A DNA stretch of 64,000 bases from Xanthobacter sp. YC-JY1. GTDB lineage: Bacteria > Pseudomonadota > Alphaproteobacteria > Rhizobiales > Xanthobacteraceae. The stretch spans positions 2,403,001 through 2,467,000 of the forward strand of contig NZ_CP032674.1 of assembly GCF_021730305.1 (NCBI RefSeq), in the 5' to 3' direction. A program made the position numbers and the translations under genes. This document shows, piece after piece, positions 33,299 to 50,343 of the stretch. The notes below the pieces were generated by a model. That model saw only the letters and a program-made list of their open reading frames with translations, had not been told where the DNA came from and made no database searches. Every line of letters starts with the position of its first letter. Within the stretch, counting starts at the first letter, position 1.

Positions 33299-34498
33299 TC
33301 AGCCCTTCACGATCACCGGCATGCGCGTGGCGGGCGGTGTGTTGCGCGAGCGCTGGGTGCGGACGATGCCGTCGATGATGGTCATGCACACACCGGGCAG
33401 GTCGCCGAGGCGCACGCTGTCCAAGAGCGTGGTGCCGGGCGAGTGCTGCGCCTTGTCCATCAGCACGAAATCCGCCGCGCGACCGATCTCGATCAGGCCG
33501 GAATCCAGCGCCCGCATCCGCGCCGTGTTGCCGGTGGCGAGGCAGAAGGCTTCTTCGGCAGGTAGTTCGCCGAGGGAGGAGAGCATGGATACCATGCGCA
33601 GGATGCCGAGCGGCTGCACGCCGGAACCGGCAGGCCCGTCCGTGCCGAGGATGACTCGCTGGAGCTCGCCCAGCTCGCGGGCGAGGCGCAGCGTGTAGAG
33701 GGCCGAGCGCTCGTTGCCGTTATGAACGATCTCGAGGCCGCGCTTGCAGCCCTCGCAGATACAGCGGATCTGGTTGTCCGGCAGCGCGGTGTGGCCGCCA
33801 TTGATGTGGCCCACCACGTCCGTGTCCGCCTCCAGCACCACGTCCTTGTCGATGAGGCCGGAGCCGGGGATGGAGGGGCCGCCGGTGTGGATGGTGGACT
33901 GGATGCCGTACTTGCGCGCCCATCCCACCATCTTGCGGGCGGTGGGGCCGTCCTTCACGCCTCCTAGGCCGACCTCGCCGAGCAGCTTCACGCCGGCGGC
34001 GGCCAGCTCCTTGAAATCGTCCTCCACCATCTCGTTTTCGATGACGGGGGCACCAGCATGGACCTTCACGCCCGAGGGGCGGAAGGCCGAGAAGGCGCGC
34101 TGCGCGGTGATGGCGAGGGCCTTCACCCCCACCACGTCGCGGGCGCGGCCGGGATAATGCACCTCGCCGGCCGAGATCATGGTGGTGACGCCGCCATGGA
34201 GCGAGGAATCGATCCAGTTGATCTGGCTCTGGCGGGGCGTCCAGTCGCCGGCCACGGGGTGGACGTGGCTGTCGATGAGGCCGGGTGTGAGCGTGGTGCC
34301 GTTGGCGTCGATGAGGGTGGTCGCGCCCTCGGTGTCCACGTCCTTCTCGCGGCCGATGGCGGTGATGCGCCCGTCCAGCGCCACCACCGTGTCGGCGTCC
34401 AGAATGGGCTTCGCGAGGTCGCCGCTGAGGAGAAGGCCGATGTTGCGGATCACCAGCTTGGTGGGGCCGGCGGGACCCTGGGGCGCGTCGTGGGCCAT
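33299..34498 (-). CDS. ena: Enamidase (1,4,5,6-tetrahydro-6-oxonicotinate to 2-formylglutarate)
   Basis: This 399-residue amidohydrolase closely resembles as I recall it the enamidase of Eubacterium barkeri, a binuclear Fe-Zn enzyme that opens the reduced nicotinate ring and releases ammonia. Shared segments include LTPGLIDSHVHP, SLHGGVTTMISAG, AGVKLLGEVGLG, HTGGPSIPGS, GHINGGHTALP and RSRNTPPATR. Candidate metal ligands are His78, His80, Glu175, His204, His231 and Asp287. It lies with ferredoxin, Fpr and nicotinate dehydrogenase genes on the same strand. The 104-base gap behind fpr holds a copy of the shared operator motif, so it may have its own promoter. Confidence 0.88.
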   Translation of the reverse strand: MAHDAPQGPAGPTKLVIRNIGLLLSGDLAKPILDADTVVALDGRITAIGREKDVDTEGATTLIDANGTTLTPGLIDSHVHPVAGDWTPRQSQINWIDSSLHGGVTTMISAGEVHYPGRARDVVGVKALAITAQRAFSAFRPSGVKVHAGAPVIENEMVEDDFKELAAAGVKLLGEVGLGGVKDGPTARKMVGWARKYGIQSTIHTGGPSIPGSGLIDKDVVLEADTDVVGHINGGHTALPDNQIRCICEGCKRGLEIVHNGNERSALYTLRLARELGELQRVILGTDGPAGSGVQPLGILRMVSMLSSLGELPAEEAFCLATGNTARMRALDSGLIEIGRAADFVLMDKAQHSPGTTLLDSVRLGDLPGVCMTIIDGIVRTQRSRNTPPATRMPVIVKG

Positions 34499-34540
34499 GC
34501 TCTCGTCTCCGGAGGGGGCGCGGCGACGCGCGCCTTTCTG

Positions 34541-34558
34541 TTTGTAGGCATATGAAGT
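34541..34558. promoter_or_regulatory. Operator-like motif copy upstream of enamidase
   Basis: TTTGTAGGCATATGAAGT matches the island consensus TTWGTGTACAWATGAAAW at 14 of 18 positions. It lies 42 bases before the enamidase start in the only sizeable gap between it and fpr. Confidence 0.55.
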
Positions 34559-34602
34559 TTACGCCCGCGCCGGGCCGCTGAAAACCGGGCGCGGGGCGGA
34601 TT

Positions 34603-35376
34603 TCACCGCTCAGCGAAAGCCTTTTCGATCACGAAATGCCCCGGCTCGCTGCCCGAGCCCTCGGCGAAGCCGCGGGATTCCAGCAGCGTCTTCAGGTCCA
34701 CCATCATGGCCGGCGAGCCGCAGATCATCACCCGGTCGGTGGCGGCATCGAGCGGCGGAAGGCCCACGTCCGCGCAGAGCTTGCCGCTGTCCAGCAGGGT
34801 GGAGATGCGGCCGGTGTTGCGGAAGGGCTCGCGCGTCACGGTGGGGTAATAGAGCAGCTTGGCCGCGATCTCCTCGCCGAGGAATTCGTGGGCCGGCAAC
34901 TCCTGCGTGATGAGATCCTCATAGGCGAGGTCCGCCACGTTCCTGCAGCCATGGACCAGCACGACCTTCTCGAAGCGCTCGTAGGTCTCCGGATCGCGGA
35001 TCACCGAGAGGAAGGGCGCAAGGCCCGTGCCCGTGCCGAGCAGATAGAGGTTCTTGCCGGGCAGCAAATTGTCCATCACCAGCGTGCCGGTGGCCTTGCG
35101 GCCGACCGTGATGGCATCGCCCACCTGGATGTGCTGCAGGCGGGAGGTGAGGGGGCCGTTCGGCACCTTGATGGAGAAGAATTCCAGCGTCTCCGCCCAG
35201 GCCGGGCTCACCACCGAATAGGCGCGCAGCAGCGGACGGCCGTCCACCTTCAGGCCGATCATGGTGAATTCGCCGGTGCGGAAGCGGAAGCCGGGGTCGC
35301 GAGTGGTGGTGAAGCTGAACAGGCGGTCGGTCCAGTGATGGACGCTGAGCACCTGCTCCTCGAAGAAATTGCTCAT
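34603..35376 (-). CDS. fpr: Ferredoxin-NADP+ reductase
   Basis: This 257-residue flavoprotein moves electrons between NADPH and ferredoxin. The FAD-binding RAYSVVSPAW, the following SIKVPNGPLTSRLQ, and the NADP-binding LLGTGTGLAPFLSVIRD are those of the bacterial Fpr subfamily, with the usual C-terminal VIEKAFAER-type end. It starts 18 bases after the ferredoxin gene stop, so fdxA-fpr is an operon. In this context it probably supplies reduced ferredoxin to the 6-hydroxynicotinate reductase encoded about 5 kb away; a general stress role is the alternative. Confidence 0.93.
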   Translation of the reverse strand: MSNFFEEQVLSVHHWTDRLFSFTTTRDPGFRFRTGEFTMIGLKVDGRPLLRAYSVVSPAWAETLEFFSIKVPNGPLTSRLQHIQVGDAITVGRKATGTLVMDNLLPGKNLYLLGTGTGLAPFLSVIRDPETYERFEKVVLVHGCRNVADLAYEDLITQELPAHEFLGEEIAAKLLYYPTVTREPFRNTGRISTLLDSGKLCADVGLPPLDAATDRVMICGSPAMMVDLKTLLESRGFAEGSGSEPGHFVIEKAFAER

Positions 35377-35394
35377 GGTGGTCTCGGGGAGGTT

Positions 35395-35727
35395 CTAGAG
35401 GCTGGCAGGATCGGCGGAGAGGAGGGCGCGCTTGTCTGGCGTGTCCTTCCAGGCATCGGCATCGGCCGGCGGCGCGCCCTTCTCGGTGATGTTGGGCCAC
35501 ACCGCCGCATATTCGGCATTGAGCGCGGTCCATTCGGCGGCGCGCGGGTCGTTGTCCGGGAAGATGGCCGCCGCCGGGCATTCCGGCTCGCAGACGCCGC
35601 AGTCGATGCACTCGTCCGGATGGATCACCAGCATGTTCGCGCCGGCATAGAAGCAATCCACCGGGCACACCGCGACGCAATCCATGTAGGTGCAGCGGAT
35701 GCAGCCTTCGGTCACCACATAGGCCAT
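35395..35727 (-). CDS. fdxA: Seven-iron ferredoxin (FdxA type)
   Basis: This 110-residue ferredoxin should carry one [3Fe-4S] and one [4Fe-4S] cluster. The cysteine pattern is [18 protein letters not shown] near the N-terminus, and [12 protein letters not shown] after [10 protein letters not shown]. The 50-residue tail ([20 protein letters not shown]) is the usual FdxA extension. The ATG at 35727 gives the family length; the open frame upstream is not conserved. An operator motif copy lies 21 bases ahead of the start. Its place between nicotinate genes suggests it is a dedicated electron donor. Confidence 0.94.
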
Positions 35728-35748
35728 GGGAACGTCCTCGGCATATTG

Positions 35749-35766
35749 TTTGTGTACAAATGAAAA
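35749..35766. promoter_or_regulatory. Operator-like motif and promoter upstream of fdxA-fpr
   Basis: TTTGTGTACAAATGAAAA fits the consensus TTWGTGTACAWATGAAAW at every position. On the minus strand a perfect TTGACA (35787-35792) is followed 18 bases later by TATTTT (35763-35768), overlapping the motif. A repressor bound here would block transcription of fdxA-fpr. Confidence 0.65.
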
Positions 35767-35877
35767 TAGAGTCGGGTTGCGAAGACTGTCAACGGCTTGC
35801 CGGACGCCGGATGCGGCTCTTTTGGGCAGCGGGGCGGGATATTTTGGGCAGGGCGGGCCGCTCTTCCATTCACCTCC

Positions 35878-35990
35878 CGTCATCCCCCGGCTTGTCCGGG
35901 GGATCCACGGTGTGGCGGGGCCGGCTGCTGGGCATCATGCAGTCGGCAGGCGGCCAAGTGGATGCCCCGGACAAGCCGGGGCATGACGGC
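35878..35990. repeat. Inverted pair of dispersed palindromic repeat (family B)
   Basis: CCGTCATCCCCCGGCTTGTC at 35878-35897, continuing CGGGGGATCCAC, is mirrored by GTGGATGCCCCGGACAAGCC at 35958-35977, continuing GGGGCATGACGGC. Each unit is itself a palindrome (CCCCGGACAAGCCGGGG type). A third, single unit lies at 60041-60073. The pair fills most of the 293-base gap between nicB and fdxA. Confidence 0.8.
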
Positions 35991-36020
35991 AGTGAAAAGC
36001 AAAGGCCGGGAGCGTTCGTT

Positions 36021-39000
36021 TCAATGCGTCGGCGCCGCCCGCAATCTCGCCACCGTCCCCTCAAGTCCCTCCCACGCCGGTGCATCCGGTGCGAATTTGG
36101 CGCGCATGTAGCGCACGAGGTCGGCCACCTGCGCGTCATCGAGGCTGTCGCGGAAGGCGGGCATGTCGCCCAGCTCCGGCGCGGCGGGCTTGGGGATGCC
36201 TTCGAGGATGACGCGGATGAGATTGTCCGGCCGGGCCGCATGGACATTGGTGTTCAGTGCCAGCGCCGGGCGCGCGCCGAACAGGGTCGGCCCCTCCGGC
36301 GCATGGCAGGCGGCGCAGGCGCCGGCGAACAGGCGGCCGCCCACCGTGTCCATGGGGCGGAGTGAGGCTTCGGCCTTTGCCTCCAGCGTCGCCGCCGCCG
36401 TGACGGGATCGGCGATGGTGGGGCCGGAGAGCGAGGAGAGATAGACCGCCATGGCGCGCACGTCGGCGTCCGGCACTTCGGACAGCGCATGTACCACCGG
36501 CGCCATGGGGCCGGCTGCGGTGCCGTGGAAGCGGGAGAAGCCGGTGCGCAGATAGGTGAAGAGTTCGTCCTCGGTCCAGGGAATGGGCGCCTTCGACAGC
36601 TCCGTGAGCGCCGGCGCCTCCCATCCATCGGCAAAGCCGCCGGCAAGATAGGCCGCGCCTGTCTTCTCCGCCCCCAGCGGGTTGCGCGGCGTGTGGCAGG
36701 CGCCGCAATGGCCGAGGCCCTCCACGAGGTAGCGCCCCCGGTTCCACTGGGGGGACTGTACAGGCTCCGCCTGAAGCTGGCCGGGGCGATGGAACAGCAG
36801 GTTCCAGCCGGCCATCAGCGGGCGGATATTGAAGGGGAAGGTCATGCGGTTGTCGGGCGCCGCCGCCGTCACCGCCTGCTGCGACATGAGGAAGGCGTAG
36901 AGCGCCTGCATGTCGGCATCGCTGATGCGGCTGAAGGCGGTGTAGGGGAAGGCCGGGTAGAGGTGCCGCCCGTCGCGCCCGATGCCCTCGCGCATGGCGC
37001 GCTCGAAGGCGGCATAGGACCATGCGCCGATGCCTGTCGCCACATCCGGTGTGAGATTGGTGGAATAGACCGTGCCGAAGGGCGTGTGCAGCGGCCGCCC
37101 GCCGGCATTGGCGATGCCGCCGTCGGCCGTGTGGCAGACCGCGCAATCGCCCAGTGCCGCCAGCACCTTGCCGCGTGCGATCATGTCGGCGGAGAAGGTT
37201 GCGGGGTCGGGCGGGGCGATGGGCGCGATGGCGCCCCGGATCGGCAGCGCCAGCGTCGCCATGCCCAAGGCACCTGCAAGCGCCGCACCCGCCATCGCGA
37301 GCCACGGCCTGCGGGTCTTCTCCTTCACCGGGCGGGGCGTGGCCTCGCCGGCGAGGGCCGCGCGTACGCGGTCCGGCGTGAAGGGCGGTTCGCGCAGGCG
37401 CACGCCGGTGGCGTCGAAGATGGCATTGGCGATGGCCGCCGCGCTGGGCACCGAGGCGGATTCGCCCGACCCGAGGGGCGGATCATCCGGCCGGGGCATC
37501 AGCACCACGTTGATGACCGGCACTTCCGGGAAGGTGAGGATGGGGTAGGCGCCCCATTCTCGGCTGGTGACGGCCTTTTCGTCGAACGTCACCTGCTCCT
37601 TCAGCGCGCGGGAGGTGGACTGGATGACGTTGCCGTGGATCTGGTGCTCGATGCCGGCCGGGTTGATCATCAGCCCGGAATCCTGGCCCACGGTGACGCG
37701 CTTCACCGCCACGTCGCCGGTCGCGGTGTTCACCTCCACATCGGCCACCCAGGCGGACCATGCGGCGCCGTAGCCGGGGAATTTGGAGTGGACATAGAGG
37801 GCATAGGCGAAGCCCTGCCCGCGCACGATGTCGCCCTCCACCACCTCCTGCCGTGGTCCTGTGCGCTTCTGCCAGCCGGCGCGCTCCGCGGTGGCCTTCA
37901 CGAGGTCCACGGCGCGCGGGTCGTGCAGATGGCGCAGGCGATAATCCACCGGATCGACGCCGGCGGCGGCGGCCAGCTCATCCACATAGCTCTCGTGGGC
38001 GAAGCTGTTGGGCAAGGCCGAGACGCCGCGCAGCCAGGAGGCGCGCACGATGGGCGCCACGTCGTCCACCGCCACACGCATCACGTCATAGGCATAGGGC
38101 GGGATCGCGGTGCGGTCGCCCATCTCGTAGACGGGATTGTCCGCCGGCACCCGGCCGGTCAGCAGCAGCGCGAGGGTGACGGCGGCGTTGGAGGGGTAGC
38201 GGGTGAGGAAATCGTAGAAAGCGGGCGTGCCGTCCGCGTTGATGCCGCCCTTCACCTCCATGAGCTGGCCGGCGCCCTTGGGCTCCCAGGCGTGCTCCTG
38301 CTCGCGGGTGAGCTGCACCCGCACCGGCCGGCCCACGGCCCGGGAGAGCAAGGCGGCATCGGCGGCCACGTCGTCCGCACAATTGCGGCCATAGCAGCCC
38401 GCCGCCTCGAAGCGGATGATCTCGATGTCCTCCTCGGGCAGCCCGAGCAGCAGGGAGATGTCGGTGCGCAGCCAGTAGGGGTTCTGCGTGCCCGCCCAGA
38501 TGGTGGCGCTGTCCTCGCGCACGTCGGCGACAGCGCAGGAGGGGCCGATGGAGGCGTGCATCTGGTAGGGCCAGACATAGGTCGCCTCGATCACCTGCGC
38601 CGCGTCCGCGCGGGCGGTGTCGAGGTTGCCTTGCTCGTGGAGCAGACGTGTCTTCGCCTTCTCGGCCCCGCGCAGGGCCTCCTCGGTGCGGGAGAGGTCG
38701 GGCAGGGCAGGGGTGTCCCGCCAGTCGGCCTTCAGCACGCGGGCGGCCTCGGCGGCCTGTTCCTCGCGCTCGGCGACGACGCCGATGAAGTCGCCCATGG
38801 TGACGACCGCCACCACGCCGGGAACATGGGCGACGGAGTGCTCGTCCACCCGGATCAGGCTCTTGCCCACGAACGGGCCGGCATCGATGCCGGCATAAGG
38901 CGGGCGCACCACGCGGCCGTGGAGCATGCCCGGCACGCGCACGTCGTGGACATAGGTGAAGGTGCCCGTCGCCTTGGCCGGAATATCCACCCGCGGCACG

Positions 39001-39569
39001 CGGCGGCCGACGATGCGGTGCTCGCTCGCCGGCTTCACCGCGGTCTCCTGATGGAGCATCAGCCGGTCGGCGCGGCCCTTGAGCAGGTCGGCATAGGAGA
39101 GGCCGGTGTTGCGCCCATCCTTTGGACGGACGATGCCCTCCTCCACCTCAAGTTGGTCGACGGGAATGCCCAATGCCTCCGCCGCGAGCGTCACCAGATG
39201 GGCGCGGGCCTGCGCCGCCGCGTGGCGCAGCGGGCGGGCGGAGACCTGGATGGAATCGGAGGCGATGGTGCCGCCCTGGTTCGGCGCGACGCCGGTATGG
39301 CCGAGCACCATGGTGACGCTATCGAGCGCCACATCCAGCTCCTCGGCGACGATCTGGGCCAGCGCCGTGCGGATGCCGGTGCCGAGGTCCACATGGCCGT
39401 TGAAGGCGGTGACGGTGCCGGTGTCGTCCACCAGCAGGAACAGGTCGAGGGCGCCGTCCTTCGGGGCTGCGCTCGGCACGAGGCCGTGCACCACCTGCGC
39501 CGGCCGCAGGATGGCGAGATTGCCGGTGGCGGCGAGCAGCGCCGCGGGATCGGGCCGCGGCTCGCTCAC
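36021..39569 (-). CDS. nicB: Nicotinate dehydrogenase large subunit: molybdopterin domain fused to tri-haem cytochrome c
   Basis: This 1182-residue protein matches the NicB design of Pseudomonas putida (about 1187 residues). The first 740 or so residues are a xanthine-dehydrogenase-family molybdopterin domain with GHVDLGTGIRTALAQIVAEE, VLGHTGVAPNQGGTIASDS, AAGCYGRNCADDVAADAALL and PLGSGESASVP. A membrane-anchor-like hydrophobic stretch (near residues 760-785) precedes three cytochrome c modules with CAVCH, CGACH and CAACH near residues 808, 954 and 1083. It should hydroxylate nicotinate at C6 and pass electrons to the respiratory chain. The GTG start overlaps the nicA stop (GTGA). Confidence 0.88.
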   Translation of the reverse strand: MSEPRPDPAALLAATGNLAILRPAQVVHGLVPSAAPKDGALDLFLLVDDTGTVTAFNGHVDLGTGIRTALAQIVAEELDVALDSVTMVLGHTGVAPNQGGTIASDSIQVSARPLRHAAAQARAHLVTLAAEALGIPVDQLEVEEGIVRPKDGRNTGLSYADLLKGRADRLMLHQETAVKPASEHRIVGRRVPRVDIPAKATGTFTYVHDVRVPGMLHGRVVRPPYAGIDAGPFVGKSLIRVDEHSVAHVPGVVAVVTMGDFIGVVAEREEQAAEAARVLKADWRDTPALPDLSRTEEALRGAEKAKTRLLHEQGNLDTARADAAQVIEATYVWPYQMHASIGPSCAVADVREDSATIWAGTQNPYWLRTDISLLLGLPEEDIEIIRFEAAGCYGRNCADDVAADAALLSRAVGRPVRVQLTREQEHAWEPKGAGQLMEVKGGINADGTPAFYDFLTRYPSNAAVTLALLLTGRVPADNPVYEMGDRTAIPPYAYDVMRVAVDDVAPIVRASWLRGVSALPNSFAHESYVDELAAAAGVDPVDYRLRHLHDPRAVDLVKATAERAGWQKRTGPRQEVVEGDIVRGQGFAYALYVHSKFPGYGAAWSAWVADVEVNTATGDVAVKRVTVGQDSGLMINPAGIEHQIHGNVIQSTSRALKEQVTFDEKAVTSREWGAYPILTFPEVPVINVVLMPRPDDPPLGSGESASVPSAAAIANAIFDATGVRLREPPFTPDRVRAALAGEATPRPVKEKTRRPWLAMAGAALAGALGMATLALPIRGAIAPIAPPDPATFSADMIARGKVLAALGDCAVCHTADGGIANAGGRPLHTPFGTVYSTNLTPDVATGIGAWSYAAFERAMREGIGRDGRHLYPAFPYTAFSRISDADMQALYAFLMSQQAVTAAAPDNRMTFPFNIRPLMAGWNLLFHRPGQLQAEPVQSPQWNRGRYLVEGLGHCGACHTPRNPLGAEKTGAAYLAGGFADGWEAPALTELSKAPIPWTEDELFTYLRTGFSRFHGTAAGPMAPVVHALSEVPDADVRAMAVYLSSLSGPTIADPVTAAATLEAKAEASLRPMDTVGGRLFAGACAACHAPEGPTLFGARPALALNTNVHAARPDNLIRVILEGIPKPAAPELGDMPAFRDSLDDAQVADLVRYMRAKFAPDAPAWEGLEGTVARLRAAPTH

Positions 39570-40054
39570 GGCTGGGCCTCCACGCTCTCGCTGGAGCCGG
39601 CAGCGGCGCGCAGGACGGCGCGCAGGATCTCCACATGCGTCCCGCAACGGCACAGGTTGTAGCGCAGCGCCGCGCGGGCCTCGGCCTCGGTGGGGGAGGG
39701 ATTGCGCGCGAGGAAAGCGACCGTGGTCATGATCATGCCGTTGAGACAATAGCCGCACTGGGCCGCCTGCTCGGCGATGAAGGCGGCCTGCACCGGGTGC
39801 AGGGTGCCCTGCGTCGCGAGCCCCTCCAGCGTCGTCACCGCGCGCCCCTCGGCCGTGCCCAGCGTGGTGACGCAGGAGCGCGTGGCGCGGCCGTCCATCA
39901 GCACCGTGCAGGCGCCGCATTCCCCGAGGCCGCAGCCGAACTTGGGGCCGTTCAACCCCAGGTCGTTGCGCAGCACGTAGATCAGCGGCGTCTCGCGCGG
40001 CAACGCGAAGGCGTGGGTTTCGCCGTTGACCTGGAGTAGGATGGGGGCGGACAT
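39566..40054 (-). CDS. nicA: Nicotinate dehydrogenase small subunit, 2x[2Fe-2S]
   Basis: This 162-residue iron-sulfur subunit relays electrons from the molybdenum site of NicB to its haems. The plant-type cluster lies in GPKFGCGLGECGACTVLMDG plus a following Cys (TRSCVTT). The second cluster is in AAQCGYCLNGMIM and YNLCRCGTHVEI. The chosen ATG (MSAPILLQVNGE) gives the family N-terminus. There is no FAD subunit gene nearby, as expected for the cytochrome-linked type. It is the first gene of nicAB, divergent from hnr. Confidence 0.92.
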   Translation of the reverse strand: MSAPILLQVNGETHAFALPRETPLIYVLRNDLGLNGPKFGCGLGECGACTVLMDGRATRSCVTTLGTAEGRAVTTLEGLATQGTLHPVQAAFIAEQAAQCGYCLNGMIMTTVAFLARNPSPTEAEARAALRYNLCRCGTHVEILRAVLRAAAGSSESVEAQP

Positions 40055-40123
40055 CTCGAAGGAACCGCTCAGCCTTTGCCGCAAGAAACCGGGACCGGGA
40101 CGGGCCCGCCACAGAGTGGATTG

Positions 40124-40141
40124 TTTCTATACTAATGATCG
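40124..40141. promoter_or_regulatory. Weaker operator-like motif copy upstream of nicAB
   Basis: TTTCTATACTAATGATCG matches the island consensus at 12 of 18 positions. On the minus strand it reads CATTAGTATAGAAAC, sharing CATTAGTRTA with the hnr copy. A TTGACG hexamer (minus, 40144-40149) lies just beyond it. It is 70 bases ahead of the nicA start. Confidence 0.45.
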
Positions 40142-40277
40142 AGCGTCAAGCGCGCGGGACGCTCAAAACACAGGCTCCCGGCGGCCACCCGAAGAACGGG
40201 GACGGCGGAAAAATGCTGCAAGCGCAAAAGAATGACAGCAGTGCTGCCTCTTCGTGCGGCCTGCCCGTTCCTTGTGC

Positions 40278-40323
40278 TTGACACTCGGGGCCGACGCGAT
40301 TTTCATTAGTGTACATATGAAAT
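40278..40323 (+). promoter_or_regulatory. hnr promoter with palindromic operator
   Basis: A perfect TTGACA (40278-40283) is followed 17 bases on by TTTCAT (40301-40306) in the -10 position. That hexamer starts an imperfect 22-bp palindrome running to 40322, whose outer arms TTTCAT and ATGAAA match exactly. The core TTAGTGTACATATGAAAT (40306-40323) fits the island consensus fully. The overlap suggests repression by a dimeric regulator such as the MarR protein encoded downstream. Confidence 0.65.
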
Positions 40324-40359
40324 CGGATGCCCCCGTCGTGGGGCCGGAGCCGGGGTCCC

Positions 40360-41841: not shown

Positions 41842-41845
41842 GGCC

Positions 41846-42847
41846 ATGCTGCGCCCCGCCGACATCCCCGCTCAAGCGCCCAAGGTCGCGATTCCTGCCG
41901 CGACACCCGCGATGCCGGTACAGCGGCGCCTGCCGCAAGCGGGGCTGCTGGCGGACGGGCGTCGGCTGCATCTCAATGACGGACCCATCGATCTCGTGAT
42001 CGAGGCCGATGGCCCGGCGGACGTGGTCGCCTCCGCCTACCGCGCGGCGACCGAACGCCTCGCGGGCCTCCTCGATACGCTGTGCGGCGAGCTTTCCTTG
42101 CTTCGCCGGCCTGCCCATCCCGGGCCTTGCCCCCTTCAGGGCCCGGTGGCGCGACGCATGTGGGCGGCGGTGTCGCCCCATGCGCGCGCCGTTTTCATCA
42201 CCCCCATGGCGGCCGTCGCCGGGGCGGTGGCGGAAGAGGTGCTCGCCGCCATGGTGCGGCCGGGCCTCACCCGCGCCTTCGTCAACAATGGCGGCGACAT
42301 CGCGCTTTATCTTTCGCCCGGCACCGAGCTGGTGGCGGGCATCGTGGATCGGCCGGACCGCCCGCGCGTGGTCGGTTCCGCCCGCATCACGGCGGATGGA
42401 CCGGTGCGCGGCATCGCCACCTCCGGCTGGCGCGGGCGCAGCTTCTCCCTCGGCATCGCCGATGCCGTGACCGTGCTGGCGCCCACCGCTGCGGCGGCGG
42501 ATGCGGCGGCCACCGTCATCGCCAATGCGGTGAACCTGCCCGCCCATCCAGGCATCGTCCGCGTCCCGGCGCGCGAGGTGCTGCCCGACAGCGACCTCGG
42601 CCTGCTGAAAGTGACGCGCCACGTGCCTGAACTGACGCCCGCCGAGCGGGACGAGGCGCTGGCCGAAGGCCTCGCCTGCGCCGGCGCGCTGGTGGCGCGC
42701 GGCCTCATCACCGCCGCCGCGCTGCACCTGCAGGGTGCCAGCGTCTCCACCTGTCCGATGGGGGATGCCGCAATGTCATCCCGTCCCATTACCCTTTCTC
42801 CAGTTACCTTTGCCGCAGAACAAGAAAGAGGCGTCGCCCATGCCTGA
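41846..42847 (+). CDS. UPF0280 (ApbE-like fold) protein
   Basis: This 333-residue protein belongs to the UPF0280 family, which I recall as sharing the ApbE-like fold of FAD:protein FMN transferases. Recognisable blocks are GPVARRMWAAVSPHA, FITPMAAVAGAVAEEVLAAM, RAFVNNGGDIALYL, GIATSGWRGRSFSLGIADAV and AAATVIANAVNLP, which parallel ApbE's NxGGD and TSG motifs. Its ATG is four bases after hnr, so they are co-expressed. Because Hnr of E. barkeri carries covalent flavin, a role in attaching flavin to Hnr is an attractive but untested inference. The 8-base overlap with the next gene confirms operon membership. Confidence 0.75.
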   Translation: MLRPADIPAQAPKVAIPAATPAMPVQRRLPQAGLLADGRRLHLNDGPIDLVIEADGPADVVASAYRAATERLAGLLDTLCGELSLLRRPAHPGPCPLQGPVARRMWAAVSPHARAVFITPMAAVAGAVAEEVLAAMVRPGLTRAFVNNGGDIALYLSPGTELVAGIVDRPDRPRVVGSARITADGPVRGIATSGWRGRSFSLGIADAVTVLAPTAAAADAAATVIANAVNLPAHPGIVRVPAREVLPDSDLGLLKVTRHVPELTPAERDEALAEGLACAGALVARGLITAAALHLQGASVSTCPMGDAAMSSRPITLSPVTFAAEQERGVAHA

Positions 42848-43424
42848 GGTCAAGATCCGCAAGCAGGTCCGCATCCTGGAGGAGATCTTCCACGAGGGCG
42901 GCCCCGCTGCCGCCACCCCGCGCAAGCGCGGCGCCATCGTGACGGTGATCGAGAACCCGTTCGCCGGCCGCTATGTGGAAGACATCGCCGGCTTCATGGA
43001 AGACCTGAAGCCGCTGGGCGCCGCCATGGCCAAGGAACTCCTTGCCGCGCTCGGCGGTGATGCCAAGGCCATCGACGGCTACGGCAAGGGCGCCATTGTC
43101 GGCGCCGCCGGCGAGATCGAGCACGGCGCGCTCTGGCACGTGCCGGGCGGCTACGCCATGCGCGAGGCGCTGGGCGATGCCAAGGCCATCGTGCCTTCCA
43201 CCAAGAAGGTGGGCGGGCCGGGCACAAGGCTCGACGTGCCGGTGACCCATGTGAACGCCTCCTACGTGCGCTCGCATTTCGACGCCATGGAAGTGGGCGT
43301 GTCCGACGCCCCCAAGGCCGACGAGATCGCGCTCGTGCTGGTCATGACCTGCGGCCCGCGCGTCCATGCCCGCGTCGGCGGCCTCGCGGCGGAAGCCATC
43401 AAGGGCGAGGACGGCCTGCGATGA
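42840..43424 (+). CDS. DUF1185 (AA_synth) family protein, first copy
   Basis: This 194-residue protein belongs to the family labelled 'amino acid synthesis' (DUF1185), whose biochemical activity I do not know. Conserved blocks are GAIVTVIENPFAGRYVEDIA, then YGKGAIVGAAGEIEHGALW, ALGDAKAIVPSTKKVGGPGT, and RSHFDAMEVGVSDAPKADEI. It overlaps the UPF0280 gene by eight bases and its stop overlaps the next gene as ATGA. A paralogue of the same length follows at once, so the two may form a heteromer. No signal peptide or membrane helix is seen, so it is probably cytoplasmic. Confidence 0.8.
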   Translation: MPEVKIRKQVRILEEIFHEGGPAAATPRKRGAIVTVIENPFAGRYVEDIAGFMEDLKPLGAAMAKELLAALGGDAKAIDGYGKGAIVGAAGEIEHGALWHVPGGYAMREALGDAKAIVPSTKKVGGPGTRLDVPVTHVNASYVRSHFDAMEVGVSDAPKADEIALVLVMTCGPRVHARVGGLAAEAIKGEDGLR

Positions 43425-44005
43425 GCGCAAACATCCGCAAGATCGTCACCATCGTCGAGGAGACGCGGACCGAGATGGGCCGCCCCGTCTCCCCGCCCAC
43501 CCGTCGCGCGGCGGCCATTGCGGTGATCGAGAACCCGTTCGCCGGCCGCTATGTGGAAGACCTCGCCGATCTCATCGCCATGGGCGACGAGCTGGGCGGC
43601 CTTCTCGCCCGAAAGGCGGTGGAGGCCCTCGGCATCGAGGGGCCAGCGGCCGAGAGCTACGGCAAGGCGGCGCTGGTGGGCGAGAATGGCGAGCTGGAGC
43701 ACGCCGCGGCCCTGCTGCACCCCAAGATGGGCGCGCCGGTGCGCGTTGTGCTGGGCAAGGGCGCGGCGCTCATCCCCTCGTCCAAGCGGCGCGGCGGCCT
43801 CGGCGCGGAGCTGGACATCCCGCTCGGCCACAAGGATGCGGCCTTCGTGCGCAGCCATTTCGACGGCATGATCGTCAGCGTGTCGGATGCGCCGCGGGCG
43901 AACGAGATCGTGGTCGCCGTGGCGGTCACGGATTCCGGCCGGCCGCTGCCGCGCGTCGGCGGGCTGAAGAAGGACGAGATCAAGGGCGAGGACGGGCTGA
44001 GATAG
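43421..44005 (+). CDS. DUF1185 (AA_synth) family protein, second copy
   Basis: This second DUF1185 protein is also 194 residues and shares the same blocks as its neighbour: AAIAVIENPFAGRYVEDLAD, SYGKAALVGENGELEHAAAL, ALIPSSKRRGGLGAELDIPL, RSHFDGMIVSVSDAPRANEI and a C-terminal IKGEDGLR identical in both. The centre differs clearly, so this is an old duplication, not a recent one. ATGA overlap with the first copy implies coupled translation at similar levels. Position between hnr and an ABC transporter suggests a step or chaperone-like role in nicotinate breakdown. Confidence 0.8.
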   Translation: MSANIRKIVTIVEETRTEMGRPVSPPTRRAAAIAVIENPFAGRYVEDLADLIAMGDELGGLLARKAVEALGIEGPAAESYGKAALVGENGELEHAAALLHPKMGAPVRVVLGKGAALIPSSKRRGGLGAELDIPLGHKDAAFVRSHFDGMIVSVSDAPRANEIVVAVAVTDSGRPLPRVGGLKKDEIKGEDGLR

Positions 44006-44056
44006 GCCCCGCCCCCGCGCGGACGGTTCATGGGAAATCATAAAAGGGGAATGGAC

Positions 44057-45253
44057 ATGAAGAAGCTGGTCGCGGCATCCCTCGCCGCTCTCCTCCTCGC
44101 CGCAGGCGGGGCGCGGGCGCAGCAGGGCGAGATCAAGGTAGGCGAGATCAATTCCTATTCGGCGTTGCCCGCCTTCCTCGATCCCTATCGCAAGGGGATG
44201 GATCTGGCGCTGAAGGAAGTGAACGACGCCGGCGGCATCAAGGGCAAGAAGCTCGTCATCATCTCCAAGGACGACGGCGGCAAGCCGGCCGATGCGCTCA
44301 CCGCCGCCAACGAGCTGGTCTCGCGCGACGGCGTGGTGATGATCGCCGGCGGCTTCCTCTCCAATGTCGGCCTCGCGCTCGCCGACTTCGCCAAGCAGAA
44401 GCAGGTGATGTACCTGGCCGCCGAGCCGCTCACCGACGCGCTCGTCTGGTCCAAGGGCAACGACTACACCTTCCGCCTGCGCACCTCGAACTACATGCAG
44501 GCCGCCATGCTGGCGGAAGAGGCGGCGAAGCTCCCGGCCAAGCGCTGGGCCACCATCGCCCCCAACTACGAGTTCGGCCAGTCCTTCGTCGCGGTGTTCA
44601 AGGAACTGCTGAAGAAGCGCAAGCCGGACGTGGAGTTCGTCGCCGAACAGTGGCCGCCGCTGAACAAGATCGACGCCGGCCCGGTGCTCCAGGCCATCGA
44701 CGCCGCCAATCCCGAGGCCATCCTCAACGCCACCTTCGCCGGCGACCTCGTGAAGCTGGTGCGTGAGGGCAATACGCGCGGTATCTTCAAGAACCGCGTC
44801 GTGGTGAGCTATCTCACCGGCGAGCCGGAATATCTCGACCCGCTGAAGACCGAGACCCCCGAGGGCTGGATCGTCACCGGCTATCCCTGGTACGGCATCA
44901 AGACCGCTGAGCACCAGGCGTTCCTCGACGCCTACCAGCAGCTCCACAAGGACTATCCGCGCCTCGGCTCCATCGTCGGCTATTCGACCGTGAAGTCCAT
45001 CGCCGCGGCGCTGAAGGCGACCGACGACTACTCCACCGCCGGCCTCCTCAAGGCGATGAAGAACCTCAAGGTCTCCACCCCCTTCGGCGATGTCGTCTAC
45101 CGGGCGGCGGACCACCAGTCGACCATGGGCGCCTATATCGGCACGACCTCGCAGAAGGACGGGCAGGGCATCATGGTGAACTTCCAGTTCAAGCCCGGTG
45201 CCGACTACCTGCCGAGCGAAGCCGAAGCCGCGAAGCTGCGCCCGGCGAACTGA
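44057..45253 (+). CDS. Liv-type ABC transporter substrate-binding protein, candidate nicotinate binder
   Basis: This 398-residue periplasmic protein has a Sec signal peptide (MKKLVAASLAALLLAAGGARA) and a Peripla_BP_6 fold as in LivJ-type proteins: GEIKVGEINSYSALPAFLDPY, split by loops, then ALKEVNDAGGIKGKKLVII and the conserved NDAGG motif. The ATG at 44057 has GGGGA six bases ahead. Proteins of this class bind branched amino acids, amides, urea or aromatic acids. Its place in a nicotinate operon suggests nicotinate or 6-hydroxynicotinate as ligand; this is inference. Confidence 0.88.
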   Translation: MKKLVAASLAALLLAAGGARAQQGEIKVGEINSYSALPAFLDPYRKGMDLALKEVNDAGGIKGKKLVIISKDDGGKPADALTAANELVSRDGVVMIAGGFLSNVGLALADFAKQKQVMYLAAEPLTDALVWSKGNDYTFRLRTSNYMQAAMLAEEAAKLPAKRWATIAPNYEFGQSFVAVFKELLKKRKPDVEFVAEQWPPLNKIDAGPVLQAIDAANPEAILNATFAGDLVKLVREGNTRGIFKNRVVVSYLTGEPEYLDPLKTETPEGWIVTGYPWYGIKTAEHQAFLDAYQQLHKDYPRLGSIVGYSTVKSIAAALKATDDYSTAGLLKAMKNLKVSTPFGDVVYRAADHQSTMGAYIGTTSQKDGQGIMVNFQFKPGADYLPSEAEAAKLRPAN

Positions 45254-45284
45254 GGGCGGCCTTCGTCGGTCGTCACGGTGCGAA

Positions 45285-45390
45285 CCCTCTCCCCTCGCGG
45301 GAGAGTGCAGGGTGAGGGGAGGGGCATCGGAATTCCGCCCGGCGCCTGACCCCTCACCCCCGCCCCCTCTCCCGCAAGGGGAGAGGGGGG
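45285..45390. repeat. Inverted pair of dispersed palindromic repeat (family A)
   Basis: CCCTCTCCCCTCGCGGGAGA at 45285-45304 with its tail GTGCAGGGTGAGGGG faces CCCCCTCTCCCGCAAGGGGA at 45364-45383 with its preceding ACCCCTCACCCCCG. These are the same units as at 10241-10359. The pair lies between the binding-protein gene and the permease gene, where its hairpins could protect the upstream mRNA and raise binding-protein yield. Confidence 0.8.
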
Positions 45391-45505
45391 CAAACACGGC
45401 GCGGGCGGCGCCAGTCAGCCGCCCCCGCATATCCGGCCCCGGCCCTCGACGGCAGGTGGTCCAAAAAGACCAAAACTTCCAGCAGGTGAACGAGAGGCTG
45501 AAGCC

Positions 45506-47395
45506 GTGGAATTTCTTCTGGTCCAGGCCCTGAGCGGGCTCGCCAGCGCCGCGTCGCTGTTTCTGGTGGCGTCGGGACTGTCGATCATCTTCGGCGTCAC
45601 GCGCATCGTGAACTTCGCCCATGGCGCCTTCTACATGCTGGGCGCCTATGTGGCCTACACGCTGACGACGCGCTTTGCCGGGCCGCTCGGCTTCTGGGGC
45701 GCCATCGTCGCGGCGGCGATCATCGTCGCGATCCTCGGCGCGCTGATGGAGATGGTGCTGCTGCGGCGCATCTATCAGGCGCCGGAACTCTTCCAGCTCC
45801 TCGCCACCTTCGGCGTGACGCTGATGGTGCAGGACCTCGTGGTGGTGATCTGGGGCCCGGAAGACCTCCTCGGCCCGCGCGCGCCCGGCTTCACCGGCGC
45901 CATCAGCCTGTTCGGCCGCATGGTGCCCACCTACGATCTCTTCATGATGACCCTCGGGCCCGTGGTGCTCGGCATCCTCTGGCTGCTGTTCCACAAGACC
46001 CGCTGGGGCGTGCTGGTGCGCGCGGCGACGCAGGACCGCGAGATGGTCGCGGCGCTGGGCGTGAACCAGAAATGGCTGTTCACCGGCGTGTTCGCGCTGG
46101 GCGTCTTCCTCGCCGCCCTCGGCGGCGCGCTGCAGATCCCGCGCACCACCGTCACCCATGCCATGGACCTCTCCATCATCGTGGAGGTGTTCGTGGTGGT
46201 GGTCATCGGCGGCCTTGGTTCGGTGTTCGGTGCGTTCGTGGCGGCCATCATCGTGGCTGAGCTGAACGCCTTCGGCATTCTCATCCTGCCGCAGATTTCG
46301 CTCATCACCGTGTTCCTGGTGATGGCGGTGGTGCTGGTGGTGCGGCCCTGGGGCCTGTTCGGCAAGCCGGAGAGCGCACCCCGTGCCGCTGCCGGCCTCA
46401 CTATCCGGCCCTGGCGTCCGTTCACGCAGATGGAGCGGGCCGGCGTGGCGCTGGTGGTGGTCGCGGTGGCAGCGCTGCCCTTCTTCCTCGGCAACTATGC
46501 CCTTACGGTGGGCGCGGAAATCCTCATCTACGTGCTGTTCGCGGCCAGCCTGCATTTCATGATGACGGTGGGCGGCCTCGCCTCCTTCGGCCATGCCGCC
46601 TATTTCGGCCTGGGCGCCTATGGCGCGGCCTTCCTGGTGAAATATATGGGCGCGCCCATGGAGGCGGCGCTCATCGTCGGCCCGCTGCTGGGGCTGGCCG
46701 GGGCGGTGCTGTTCGGCTGGTTCTGCGTGCGGCTCTCGGGCGTCTATTTCGCCATGCTGACGCTGGCCTTCGCGCAGATCGCCTGGTCCATCGCCTTCCA
46801 GTGGGTGGACGTGACCGGCGGCGACAACGGCCTGCTCGGCATCTGGCCGGCGAGCTGGGCGTCGCGGCCGGCCGGCTTCTTCTGGCTGGCGCTAGGCATC
46901 GCGGTGGTGGGTGTCGCCGTGCTCAGGATGCTCGTGTTCTCGCCGTTCGGCTATGGGCTCAGGGCGGTGCGCGACAGCGCGCTGCGCTCCGAGGCCATCG
47001 GCCTCAACCGGCAGCGGATGCAATGGGCAGCCTTCATCGTCGCCGGCACCTTCGCCGGGCTGGCGGGCGCGCTGTTCGCCTTCCTCAAGGGCTCGGTCTT
47101 CCCCGACTACATGGCCATCCCCACCTCGGTGGACGGCCTCGTGATGGTGCTGCTCGGCGGCGTCGAGACGGTCTCCGGCGCGGTGGTGGGCGCGGTGCTC
47201 TACAAGGCGCTCGCCATCTGGCTGATGAGCCAGACCGACCTCTCCAAGCTGGTGCTGGGCGGCGTCATCGTCGTCATCGTGCTCGCCTTCCCCAAGGGGG
47301 TCGTGGGCTTCATCGAGGACCTGCGCCATCGCTGGCCCCGCAAGGGCAATGGAGCCGGTGCGCCGGTTGGCGCCACCAAAGCGGAGGCCGCGTGA
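45506..47395 (+). CDS. Fused LivH-LivM ABC transporter permease
   Basis: This 629-residue protein carries both permease subunits of a branched-chain-type transporter in one chain. The LivH half (about residues 1-290) has SGLSIIFGVTRIVNFAHGAF, MLGAYVAY and VVVIGGLGSVFGAFVAAIIV. The LivM half (about 310-610) has GGLASFGHAAYFGLGAYGAA, GVYFAMLTLAFAQI, RAVRDSALRSEAIGLN and a VMVLLGGVETVSGAVVGAVL loop. Each half has its EAA-like coupling loop. The GTG start has GAGAGG ahead. Such fusions occur, but separate livH and livM are more usual. livG follows with a one-base overlap. Confidence 0.92.
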   Translation: MEFLLVQALSGLASAASLFLVASGLSIIFGVTRIVNFAHGAFYMLGAYVAYTLTTRFAGPLGFWGAIVAAAIIVAILGALMEMVLLRRIYQAPELFQLLATFGVTLMVQDLVVVIWGPEDLLGPRAPGFTGAISLFGRMVPTYDLFMMTLGPVVLGILWLLFHKTRWGVLVRAATQDREMVAALGVNQKWLFTGVFALGVFLAALGGALQIPRTTVTHAMDLSIIVEVFVVVVIGGLGSVFGAFVAAIIVAELNAFGILILPQISLITVFLVMAVVLVVRPWGLFGKPESAPRAAAGLTIRPWRPFTQMERAGVALVVVAVAALPFFLGNYALTVGAEILIYVLFAASLHFMMTVGGLASFGHAAYFGLGAYGAAFLVKYMGAPMEAALIVGPLLGLAGAVLFGWFCVRLSGVYFAMLTLAFAQIAWSIAFQWVDVTGGDNGLLGIWPASWASRPAGFFWLALGIAVVGVAVLRMLVFSPFGYGLRAVRDSALRSEAIGLNRQRMQWAAFIVAGTFAGLAGALFAFLKGSVFPDYMAIPTSVDGLVMVLLGGVETVSGAVVGAVLYKALAIWLMSQTDLSKLVLGGVIVVIVLAFPKGVVGFIEDLRHRWPRKGNGAGAPVGATKAEAA

Positions 47396-48177
47396 TGAGC
47401 CCGCTGCTCGAAGTCAAAGACCTGATGAAGTCCTATGGCGGCGTCCATGCCGTGCGGGGCGTGTCCTTCACGGTGGAGGCTGGCCAGATGCTCGCCCTCA
47501 TCGGCCCCAACGGCGCCGGCAAGAGCACCTGCTTCAACATGCTCAACGGCCAGATTCCGCCCGATGCCGGCACGGTGCGCATCGAGGGCAAGGACATCAA
47601 GGGCCTGCCGCCGCGCGCCGTGTGGCGGCTCGGCGTCGGCCGTACCTTCCAGATCACCGCCACCTTCGCCTCAATGACGGTGCGCGAGAACGTGCAGGTG
47701 GCGCTCATCTCCTTCCACGGGCTCATCTCCCGCGTGTTCGGCTTTGCCGGTGCGGCCTGCCGGGAGGAGGCGGATGCGCTCCTCGCCCTCGTCGGCCTCA
47801 CCACCCAGGCAGAGCGGCCGTGCGGGGAACTGGCCTATGGCGACCTGAAGCGGCTTGAACTGGCGGTGGCGCTCGCCAACCAGCCGCGCCTCCTCCTCAT
47901 GGACGAGCCCACCGCCGGAATGGCGCCGCGCGAGCGCGTCGAGCTGATGCGCCTGACTGCCGAGATCGCCCGCGCCAAGGGCATCGGCGTGCTCTTCACC
48001 GAGCACGACATGGACGTGGTGTTCGAGCATGCCGACGAGGTGATGGTGCTCAACCGCGGCCAGCTCATCGCCCGCGGCACCCCGGCCGAGGTGCGGCGCG
48101 ACCCGCAGGTGCGCGCCATCTATCTCGGCGAAGGACTGCTCTACGACGCACGGCACCGCGAGGGGACTGCGGCATGA
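47395..48177 (+). CDS. Liv-type ABC transporter ATP-binding protein (LivG)
   Basis: This 260-residue ATPase is one of the two that drive the fused permease. Walker A is GPNGAGKST, followed by the LivG-typical GVGRTFQITATFASMTVREN. The signature region reads GELAYGDLKRLELAVALAN, so the usual LSGG is replaced by LAYGD, as is common in LivG. Walker B is LLLMDEPTAGMAP, then the switch FTEHDMDVVFEHAD. GGAGG precedes the ATG, which overlaps the upstream stop by one base; the gene's own stop overlaps livF as ATGA. Confidence 0.93.
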   Translation: MSPLLEVKDLMKSYGGVHAVRGVSFTVEAGQMLALIGPNGAGKSTCFNMLNGQIPPDAGTVRIEGKDIKGLPPRAVWRLGVGRTFQITATFASMTVRENVQVALISFHGLISRVFGFAGAACREEADALLALVGLTTQAERPCGELAYGDLKRLELAVALANQPRLLLMDEPTAGMAPRERVELMRLTAEIARAKGIGVLFTEHDMDVVFEHADEVMVLNRGQLIARGTPAEVRRDPQVRAIYLGEGLLYDARHREGTAA

Positions 48178-48878
48178 AACTTCAGGTCTCGAACCTCAAC
48201 AGCCATTACGGCCCCGCCCACATCCTCTACGATGTGGGCCTCGAGATCGGCGCCGGCGAGGTGGTGGCGCTGCTCGGCCGCAACGGGGCGGGCAAGAGCA
48301 CGACCTTCCGCTCCATCGTCGGCCTCGTACCCCAGCGCGAGGGTACCGTGATGTTCGACGGTGCCGACGTCTCGCGCCTGCCGACCTACGAGATCGTGCG
48401 GCGCGGCCTCGGCTACGTGCCGGAGGACCGGCGCATCTTCAGCCATCTGACGGTGGAGGAGAATTTCGAGGTGGGCCGGCAGGCGCCGCGCCCGGGCGTC
48501 GCCACCTGGACGCCGGACATGCTCTACAAGCTGTTCCCCAACCTCGGCGAGATGCGGAAGCGGCCTGGCGGGCAGATGAGCGGCGGAGAGCAGCAGATGC
48601 TCACCATCGGCCGGACCTTGATGGGCAATCCCTCCCTCGTGCTGCTGGACGAGCCCTCCGAGGGCCTCGCGCCCAAGATCGTGGAGCAGATGGCCGACGC
48701 CATCCTCGCCATGAAGGGGGAGGGGCTCTCGGTGGTCATCTCCGAGCAGAACCTGCACTTCGCCAAGCTGATCTCGGATCGCGCCTACATCATCGAGAAG
48801 GGCCGCATCCGCTTTTCCGGCACCATCGCGGATCTGGAGGCAAATCCGGAAATCCGCGACGCCTATCTGGCGGTCTGA
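48174..48878 (+). CDS. Liv-type ABC transporter ATP-binding protein (LivF)
   Basis: This 234-residue ATPase pairs with the LivG-type protein. It has Walker A GRNGAGKST, the LivF hallmark RRGLGYVPEDRRIFSHLTVE, signature MSGGEQQMLTIGRTLM, Walker B LVLLDEPSEGLAP and a switch with Gln in place of His (VISEQNLHFAKLISD), normal for LivF. The ATGA overlap with livG shows coupled expression. The MarR gene follows after three bases. Confidence 0.93.
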   Translation: MKLQVSNLNSHYGPAHILYDVGLEIGAGEVVALLGRNGAGKSTTFRSIVGLVPQREGTVMFDGADVSRLPTYEIVRRGLGYVPEDRRIFSHLTVEENFEVGRQAPRPGVATWTPDMLYKLFPNLGEMRKRPGGQMSGGEQQMLTIGRTLMGNPSLVLLDEPSEGLAPKIVEQMADAILAMKGEGLSVVISEQNLHFAKLISDRAYIIEKGRIRFSGTIADLEANPEIRDAYLAV

Positions 48879-48881
48879 GCC

Positions 48882-49421
48882 ATGGCGTCCGAAGTCAAGC
48901 CTGAACGAACCCCACGCGCCCGCAAGGCCCTGCCGGCGCCGGTGAACAGCCCGGCACATGACGCCGTACCCCTGCAGGTGCGCCGCCCCGTGCGGCGCAC
49001 GCGGACCAATGCGCCCTACGTGCTGGACGAACAGGTGGGCTTCATGCTGCGCCAGGTGGGCCAGCGCCACGCCGCCATCTTCGCCGCGCGCATCGGCGAC
49101 GATCTGACCATGACCCAGTGGGCTGCCCTCTCGAAGCTCGCTGAGACCGGCCCCTGCTCGCAGAACCTCCTCGGGCGACTCACCGCCATGGATGCCGCCA
49201 CCATCAAGGGCGTGGTGGACCGCCTCGTGCGCCGCGGCTTCGTGGAGACACGGCCGGACACCGAGGACGGCCGCCTGCTCGTGGTGGTGCTCACCTCCGC
49301 CGGCGAGGAGGCGGTGGCGCGGGCCAGCGTGAACGCGTTCGCCATTACCGAGGAAACGCTCGCGCCGCTGGATGCCGCCGAGCGTGCCATGCTGCTGAAG
49401 CTATTGGACAGGCTGCGGTAG
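48882..49421 (+). CDS. MarR-family regulator, candidate repressor of the nicotinate island
   Basis: This 179-residue regulator has a 40-residue basic, Pro-rich N-terminus and then a MarR winged-helix domain: EQVGFMLRQVGQRHAAIFAA, LTMTQWAALSKLAETGPCSQ, LLGRLTAMDAATIKGVVDRL and the wing RRGFVETRPDTEDGRLLVVV. It is the last gene of the hnr-to-transporter operon. MarR proteins NicR of Pseudomonas and BpsR of Bordetella are known repressors of nicotinate catabolism that release DNA on binding 6-hydroxynicotinate; this gene could play that part, acting on the palindromic motif found before several units. That link is inference. Confidence 0.88.
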   Translation: MASEVKPERTPRARKALPAPVNSPAHDAVPLQVRRPVRRTRTNAPYVLDEQVGFMLRQVGQRHAAIFAARIGDDLTMTQWAALSKLAETGPCSQNLLGRLTAMDAATIKGVVDRLVRRGFVETRPDTEDGRLLVVVLTSAGEEAVARASVNAFAITEETLAPLDAAERAMLLKLLDRLR

Positions 49422-50299: not shown

Positions 50300-50317
50300 G
50301 GTTTTACGACCCGATCC

Positions 50318-50343
50318 GGCCTTGAGGCTTTTGCCTTAAGGCC
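50318..50343 (+). terminator. Hairpin behind ahpC, possible attenuator
   Basis: An 11-bp stem (GGCCTTGAGGC/GCCTTAAGGCC, one G-T pair) with a TTTT loop starts 18 bases after the ahpC stop. It lacks a downstream T tract, so partial termination or mRNA end protection is more likely than full termination. Confidence 0.45.

Follow-up and report, generated by a model that had tools for sequence, protein, structure and literature searches.

A Xanthobacter copy of the known reductive nicotinate cluster, with UPF0280 as a possible flavin-attaching partner of its 6-hydroxynicotinate reductase

The stretch analysed here, called the window, comprises 64,000 nucleotides (positions 2403001-2467000) of a complete Xanthobacter-like genome of 5.39 Mb, and carries a gene island that would serve the degradation of nicotinate. 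The island is made of three blocks: the minus strand carries fdxA-fpr-ena and nicAB, and the plus strand carries hnr-UPF0280-DUF1185-DUF1185-binding protein-livHM-livG-livF-marR. The preliminary description of this DNA had named genes for an enamidase, Fpr, a ferredoxin, UPF0280, two DUF1185 proteins, a Liv-type transporter and a MarR regulator, and had hnr diverging from nicAB; the open reading frames (ORFs) and the family and structure searches agree with these placements, and nicAB and hnr indeed lie on opposite strands. All island genes are long ORFs with GC-rich third codon positions, the probable starts of FdxA, the first DUF1185 protein and NicA being downstream of the longest-ORF starts. 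As hnr, ena, nicAB, a Liv-type transporter and a MarR gene are all found, the island belongs to the Azorhizobium type. Related loci were counted among the best 80 of at least 581 relatives, thus among the closest relatives only, and the nearest named relative in this set is Xanthobacter aminoxidans (Hnr 98%). The plus-strand order hnr-UPF0280-DUF1185-Liv genes-marR is complete in 62 of the 66 related loci with at least 9 kb after hnr (L007, L023, L025 and L075 deviate), so this gene order is not due to chance.

The Alhapel 2006 abstract is said to place genes for the first three enzymes of the pathway in nine Proteobacteria. By BLAST with the Eubacterium barkeri cluster, Shettigar et al. 2012 found clusters in Azorhizobium caulinodans, B. 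japonicum, R. palustris HaA2 and strain SG-6C, and gave a route via tetrahydro-6-oxonicotinate that in A. caulinodans leads via glutarate (PMC3511419). Their assignment was made by homology, the SG-6C reductase homologue being 42% to that of E. barkeri, and no hnr or ena knockouts were found in the accessible passages of that paper (PMC3511419). Furthermore, A. caulinodans has been grouped with E. barkeri (PMC9304392), and a strain of A. caulinodans whose nicotinate dehydrogenase gene carries an insertion is listed as Nic-, 6-OH-Nic+ (PMC3357923). The hybrid pathway was therefore already known, and the earlier impression that the island lacked a full genetic description has to be given up, since Shettigar et al. 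2012 already show the cluster. Our island and the Azorhizobium caulinodans/Bradyrhizobiaceae cluster share the enzymes of the first three steps, an ABC transporter and conserved unknown proteins (PMC3511419). The island differs from that cluster by its Xanthobacter-like genome and by having fdxA-fpr-ena as one block, and no difference in function was seen. The island is the Xanthobacter copy of a known reductive nicotinate cluster, and its new part is the lead on UPF0280.

The window protein scores 408 bits against the UPF0280 model NF003322, over the cut-off of 290, and its gene lies directly after hnr in 78 of the 80 related loci, the remaining two ending 452 and 118 bases past the hnr match. 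The pairing extends to a sample of 299 evenly drawn Pseudomonadota genomes: Hnr is present in 21, and UPF0280 over its cut-off in the identical 21, where the two are on the same strand with match ends 3-498 bp apart (genome G293 has an extra weak UPF0280 match, E 8e-5, under the cut-off). Among 72,556 plasmid records, searched with E-value limits of 1e-5 for Hnr and 0.01 for UPF0280, Hnr was found in 26 and UPF0280 in 27; all 26 Hnr plasmids carry both, 12-516 bp apart. The Fisher values take genomes as independent, with kinship uncorrected, and 12 of the 26 Hnr plasmids are from Sulfitobacter. The 27th UPF0280 plasmid, of Hydrogenophaga sp. BPS33 (L168), carries UPF0280 four times in its record, and the one copy examined lies next to an IS1071 transposase gene within a repeated segment. 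Since a C-terminal remnant of Hnr (query residues 448-490, E 0.001) adjoins UPF0280 in this copy, between it and the transposase gene, this exception looks like a broken hnr-UPF0280 pair. A separate observation concerns a Sagittula stellata plasmid typed as conjugative (L170), in which hnr-UPF0280-DUF1185 has hydantoinase A/B and ring-hydroxylating dioxygenase genes beside it; no enamidase match was found in the 25 kb analysed there.

The predicted Hnr has an N-terminal CxxCxxxCx9C motif (Cys 29/32/36/46), kept in 114-116 of 116 aligned rows, and Cys 239 and 374, kept in all 116; together with homology to annotated Hnr, the motif places it in this group. Rows that contained stops or were poorly covered were removed before the conservation counts, and both these 116 rows and the 115 rows of UPF0280 include repeat copies of the same genomes (e.g. 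the window, L081 and L109). The probable identity of Hnr is drawn from the literature cluster and from plasmid records, which annotate Hnr relatives as '6-hydroxynicotinate reductase', and not from a direct comparison with E. barkeri Hnr. Pfam and NCBIfam searches found no family for Hnr. Two results weigh against the assignment: sequence and profile searches of the PDB gave no credible relative, and the predicted structure, with a predicted local distance difference test (pLDDT) score of 41, is unfit for fold search. With no solved relative and a poor model, the chemistry of Hnr is assigned by homology only. In genome G016 (L101/L102) two overlapping matches to hnr fall in different frames, which may reflect a frameshift or an error in the sequencing.

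The predicted structure of UPF0280 is better (pLDDT 81). Its first Foldseek match is DVU1097 of Desulfovibrio (2o34), deposited as a hypothetical protein, and ranks 3-40 are all chains of the ApbE/FmnB/Ftp flavin-transferase type (E 5e-5 to 0.35), FmnB reaching E 5.4e-5 and probability 1.00 but a template modelling (TM) score on the query of only 0.33-0.35. Moreover, hhalign against 29 aligned ApbE rows yielded 95.6% and E 1.3e-8, in a single comparison. The ApbE of V. cholerae has a Ser-His-Asp catalytic triad (PMC12052999); Ser193 and Asp219 of UPF0280 align where the triad residues Ser241 and Asp285 are placed, and Ser193, Asp219 and Thr223 are invariant in 115/115 rows. UPF0280 thus has in common with the ApbE/FmnB flavin transferases the Ser and Asp of the triad and an ADA-AT block, and differs from them by the absence of the His257 loop, of a signal peptide (judged by eye) and of membership in Pfam ApbE. 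Cytosolic ApbEs exist, and a soluble fumarate reductase of Klebsiella depends on one of them (PMC12052999). This dependence provides a precedent for cytosolic flavinylation.

As for the presumed target, the Alhapel 2006 abstract reportedly describes E. barkeri Hnr as having covalent flavin. This covalent flavin, the co-occurrence and the ApbE-like model are the reasons why UPF0280 is proposed here as the flavin transferase of Hnr, and we regard its flavinylating Hnr as a dedicated partner as a tentative proposal, somewhat short of an even chance. Several observations weigh against it. The TM scores on the query are low for ApbE-type chains (0.22-0.39), the His of the triad is missing together with its loop, and a PF02424 search of the genome finds only another gene (1659542-1660384). 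UPF0280 has a relative in Desulfovibrio (DVU1097), and M. jannaschii and M. acetivorans have matches to its model under the cut-off. On the side of Hnr, the standard ApbE target motif D-x-x-[ST]-G-A-[ST] is present in 0/116 rows, and its [ST]GA[ST] core alone in 2/116. The missing His and motif weigh against an ordinary ApbE reaction, and they would suit a chaperone without catalytic activity, a protein that carries flavin, or an enzyme derived from the ApbE fold that catalyses a different reaction, an explanation to which we give nearly even odds and which also fits the closest solved structure being that of a hypothetical protein. Such a role would accord less well with the three invariant residues and with the strict pairing with Hnr in genomes and plasmids. 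Hnr does contain a near-miss block, D-x-x-T-G-V-[LV]-[ST], at residues 263-270, in which D263, T266, G267 and V268 are invariant in 116 rows. If flavin transfer is retained, UPF0280 could represent a new class of cytosolic protein-flavin transferases without the ApbE His, dedicated to Hnr and perhaps modifying this block; we consider this possible, at rather less than an even chance. No printed link between UPF0280 and Hnr, nor the term 'UPF0280' itself, was found in the openly available literature, subscription papers being outside the search; text searches found no 'nicotinate' in PMC12052999, and neither 'nicotinate' nor 'UPF' in PMC8238504.

The two DUF1185 genes follow UPF0280. In the genome sample 41 of the 299 have DUF1185; they comprise 20 of the 21 Hnr genomes and 21 genomes that lack Hnr, and because of the latter it is a broader helper family that is not Hnr-specific. 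The presence of two copies was considered as a rule and rejected: the 77 loci with room have one copy in 54 cases, two in 22 and none in 1. The DUF1185 structure is a chorismate-mutase-like hexamer whose substrate was not identified (Bakolitsa 2010, PMC2954203). A step after the enamidase, either decarboxylation of 2-formylglutarate or opening of a lactol/lactone form of the semialdehyde, seems an unlikely role for the pair. It would agree with the position of the gene, which adjoins UPF0280 (14-95 bp apart) in 20/21 Hnr genomes, with the homologue TgnF, reported as a stimulator of succinate semialdehyde oxidation, and with the homologue HcdD, which belongs to the 7-hydroxycoumarin pathway (PMC7913881). 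Yet HcdD showed no such effect when tried (PMC7913881), a single copy is what 54 of the 77 loci have, Kaistia (L007) has none near Hnr, and genome G139 has none anywhere. The Xanthobacter genome contains a third DUF1185 gene (L137:5965-6513, genome 2237970-2238497), in a catabolic-looking cluster with genes for a Liv-type binding protein/permease, a GntR/UTRA regulator and an AurF-like di-iron protein. The coordinates of all island features are collected in Table 1.

Table 1. Features of the nicotinate island, with positions in the window and the basis of each assignment.
Feature	Position	Strand	Basis
Enamidase (ena), amidohydrolase, predicted ring opening of 1,4,5,6-tetrahydro-6-oxonicotinate	33299..34498	-	phmmer to PDB 2vun
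Fpr-type ferredoxin--NADP reductase	34603..35376	-	PRK10926 and Pfam FAD_binding_6, NAD_binding_1
FdxA ferredoxin	35395..35727	-	NF045490; start shifted inward from ORF start 35883
Operator-like palindrome TTTGTGTACAAA	35749..35760		just before fdxA; 1 mismatch to TTNGTATACNAA
NicB, molybdopterin subunit with hydrophobic stretch and tri-haem cytochrome c domain	36021..39569	-	8gy3 matches, CxxCH motifs
NicA, 2x[2Fe-2S] subunit	39566..40054	-	eight Cys; orthologues in related loci
Operator-like palindrome TTTCTATACTAA	40124..40135		nicA promoter region; 1 mismatch to TTNGTATACNAA
Weaker operator-like site TTAGTGTACATA	40306..40317		before hnr; 2 mismatches to TTNGTATACNAA
Hnr, predicted 6-hydroxynicotinate reductase	40327..41841	+	conserved Cys, annotated homologues, literature cluster; start perhaps ATG 40360
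UPF0280 protein, ApbE-like, putative cytosolic flavin transferase/maturase of Hnr	41846..42847	+	NF003322
DUF1185 (AA_synth) paralogue 1	42840..43424	+	PF06684 E 2.3e-72
DUF1185 (AA_synth) paralogue 2	43421..44005	+	PF06684 E 4.3e-72; PDB 2qtp E 4.5e-84
Liv-type substrate-binding protein	44030..45253	+	Peripla_BP_6 E 2.4e-67
Fused LivH-LivM permease	45506..47395	+	two BPD_transp_2 stretches
LivG ATPase	47395..48177	+	ABC_tran and BCA_ABC_TP_C
LivF ATPase	48174..48878	+	ABC_tran E 5e-31
BpsR-like MarR regulator, putative 6-hydroxynicotinate sensor	48882..49421	+	PDB 2nnn, BpsR 6pcp

The enamidase is a clear homologue of the E. barkeri enzyme, as the preliminary description had supposed: phmmer aligns it end to end with the structure 2vun (E 9.7e-110, residues 13-394). 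The HxH, H, H and D positions are identical in this alignment, and we take them to be the metal-ligand positions typical of the amidohydrolase superfamily. Fpr matches PRK10926 at E 3.9e-50 and 170 bits, under the model cut-off of 390, and FdxA matches NF045490 FdxA_Protbact from ORF residue 53 at 154 bits, over the cut-off of 135. A feeding of Hnr by NADPH through ferredoxin had been put forward, and its components are found here, the electron route itself being a reading of the gene content. The distribution of these genes among the 64 long loci weighs against the route and the core pathway, as Fpr is near the cluster in 55 and absent from 9, FdxA is near it in only 5, and the enamidase is absent from 8.

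NicB is a protein of 1182 residues with three CxxCH motifs and a hydrophobic stretch near residue 757. Its front molybdopterin part matches 8gy3_C, the large subunit of an aldehyde dehydrogenase (E 1.2e-51), and its cytochrome part matches 8gy3_A, the cytochrome c subunit of the same enzyme (E 3.7e-105), which bears out the molybdopterin/tri-haem fusion proposed earlier. The eight-cysteine spacing of NicA is presumably the pattern of two [2Fe-2S] clusters. A NicB of at least 55% identity lies on the strand opposite hnr in 68/74 loci, and of these 74 related loci, all with a NicB match, 63 hold three CxxCH in the frame at the best match; the 11 others include four cut by a contig end (L012, L042, L048, L062) and two short ones (L066, L076). 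In L005, L006, L008, L071 and L075 a relative of the molybdenum enzyme, 29-40% identical and without CxxCH, is encoded near hnr, and in L005 a gene for a FAD-binding subunit adjoins it. As these five loci carry such a relative in the place of NicAB, the oxidising first step looks like a module that may be exchanged between lineages while hnr stays. In E. barkeri the first step is made by the four-subunit NdhFSLM and the lower route goes through methyleneglutarate, in contrast with the haem-containing NicAB and the proposed glutarate route of Xanthobacter. The search finds the enamidase in common with that fermentation, and the literature the reductase (PMC3511419).

The Xanthobacter genome offers candidates for a lower route outside the island. 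In Azorhizobium oxalatiphilum (L004) a CoA-transferase gene lies between nicA and hnr, with succinate--glutarate CoA-transferase as its best model (607 bits, under the cut-off of 750), and in Kaistia (L007) a succinate--glutarate-type CoA-transferase (580 bits) is accompanied by a gene for an acyl-CoA dehydrogenase. The Xanthobacter genome has, at 2027528-2028682, a gene with 71% identity to that of L004, side by side with an acyl-CoA dehydrogenase gene (2027528-2029990 for the two), about 0.4 Mb from the island, and this pair is a candidate for the lower-route genes. Against this stands the rank of the dehydrogenase: the glutaryl-CoA dehydrogenase model has 18 matches, all under its cut-off, and this gene comes fourth among them.

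Pseudomonas putida NicAB is likewise a two-subunit hydroxylase with a cytochrome c domain. NicAB-type enzymes of that species feed an oxygen-dependent route, with oxygen-dependent ring opening after NicAB, unlike the route proposed for Xanthobacter. One could accordingly suppose that 6-hydroxynicotinate enters the NicC/NicX maleamate route here too and that the Hnr branch serves another N-heterocycle. NicX is presumably related to the Peptidase_M29 family, of which a search of the genome found no match, a weak test since it depends on this kinship. Given also the clear 2vun homologue, and strain SG-6C, which bears the cluster and degrades 6-hydroxynicotinate by a route assigned by homology (PMC3511419), we judge this explanation very improbable.

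The regulation of the island may be read from a palindrome, TTNGTATACNAA, whose consensus was drawn by eye from six loci (L011, L012, L014, L017, L020, L030) with the window's own nicA-hnr region alongside. Of 79 related loci, 72 have it at 9/10 or better inside the 480 bp surrounding the start of hnr, one further locus having too little upstream DNA; this count includes the six source loci, and the fdxA site was not involved in the consensus. Its density there is 3.48 sites per kb, compared with 0.048 in the other parts of the related loci. All sites of the window with at most two mismatches are at 35749 (fdxA), 40124 (nicA) and 40306 (hnr). Their number alone is not above chance, as three sites compare with a shuffle mean of 1.31 and are reached in 14/100 shuffles. 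Likewise, when up to one mismatch is allowed, the genome has 6 sites and a backwards control 13, 2 of the 6 falling in the island. The significance of TTNGTATACNAA lies in position and not in number, all three window sites being at island promoters. The island MarR protein, which would act at these sites, is closest to PDB 2nnn (E 1.8e-40) and then to BpsR (6pcp, E 2.2e-19). BpsR of Bordetella contacts 6-hydroxynicotinate via Tyr15, His23, Arg26 and His32 (PMC6837509). Three of these four contacts are common to the island MarR, its Tyr46, Arg57 and His63 (BpsR Tyr15, Arg26, His32) being present in 66/66 rows, whereas the position of His23 is Phe in 66/66 rows. Immediately downstream of the island, AhpC, AhpF-like and LysR-family genes are found (window 49736-52991), the last of which we take by its position to be OxyR-like.

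We infer the reactions in this organism, the electron route, the pairing of operator and regulator and the flavin transfer as follows. Nicotinate would be imported by the Liv-type transporter and hydroxylated to 6-hydroxynicotinate by membrane-anchored NicAB, the electrons passing via the three haems into respiration. Electrons from NADPH would reach Hnr through Fpr and ferredoxin, and Hnr, its flavin perhaps covalently attached by UPF0280 as a dedicated partner, would reduce the ring to 1,4,5,6-tetrahydro-6-oxonicotinate, which the enamidase would open to 2-formylglutarate and ammonia. The carbon may then flow via glutarate to glutaryl-CoA with enzymes encoded outside the island. The BpsR-like MarR protein would repress three promoters through TTNGTATACNAA until released by 6-hydroxynicotinate. 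The core of this scheme, oxidation by NicAB, reduction by Hnr and opening by the enamidase, is highly probable on the basis of the gene sequences; the idea of respiratory ring oxidation followed by reduction and hydrolytic opening, advanced at the outset, fits the gene content, each reaction in this organism being deduced from it.

The operator and the MarR regulator make a regulon prediction that is directly testable. If the proposal on UPF0280 is true, a so far uncharacterised family, relatives of which occur in methanogens and Desulfovibrio, would gain a testable function, and a foreign host might perhaps yield active Hnr, so that the ring-reduction chemistry would become accessible to study. 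It would also mean that a ring-reducing flavo-iron-sulfur enzyme of aerobes needs its own maturase.

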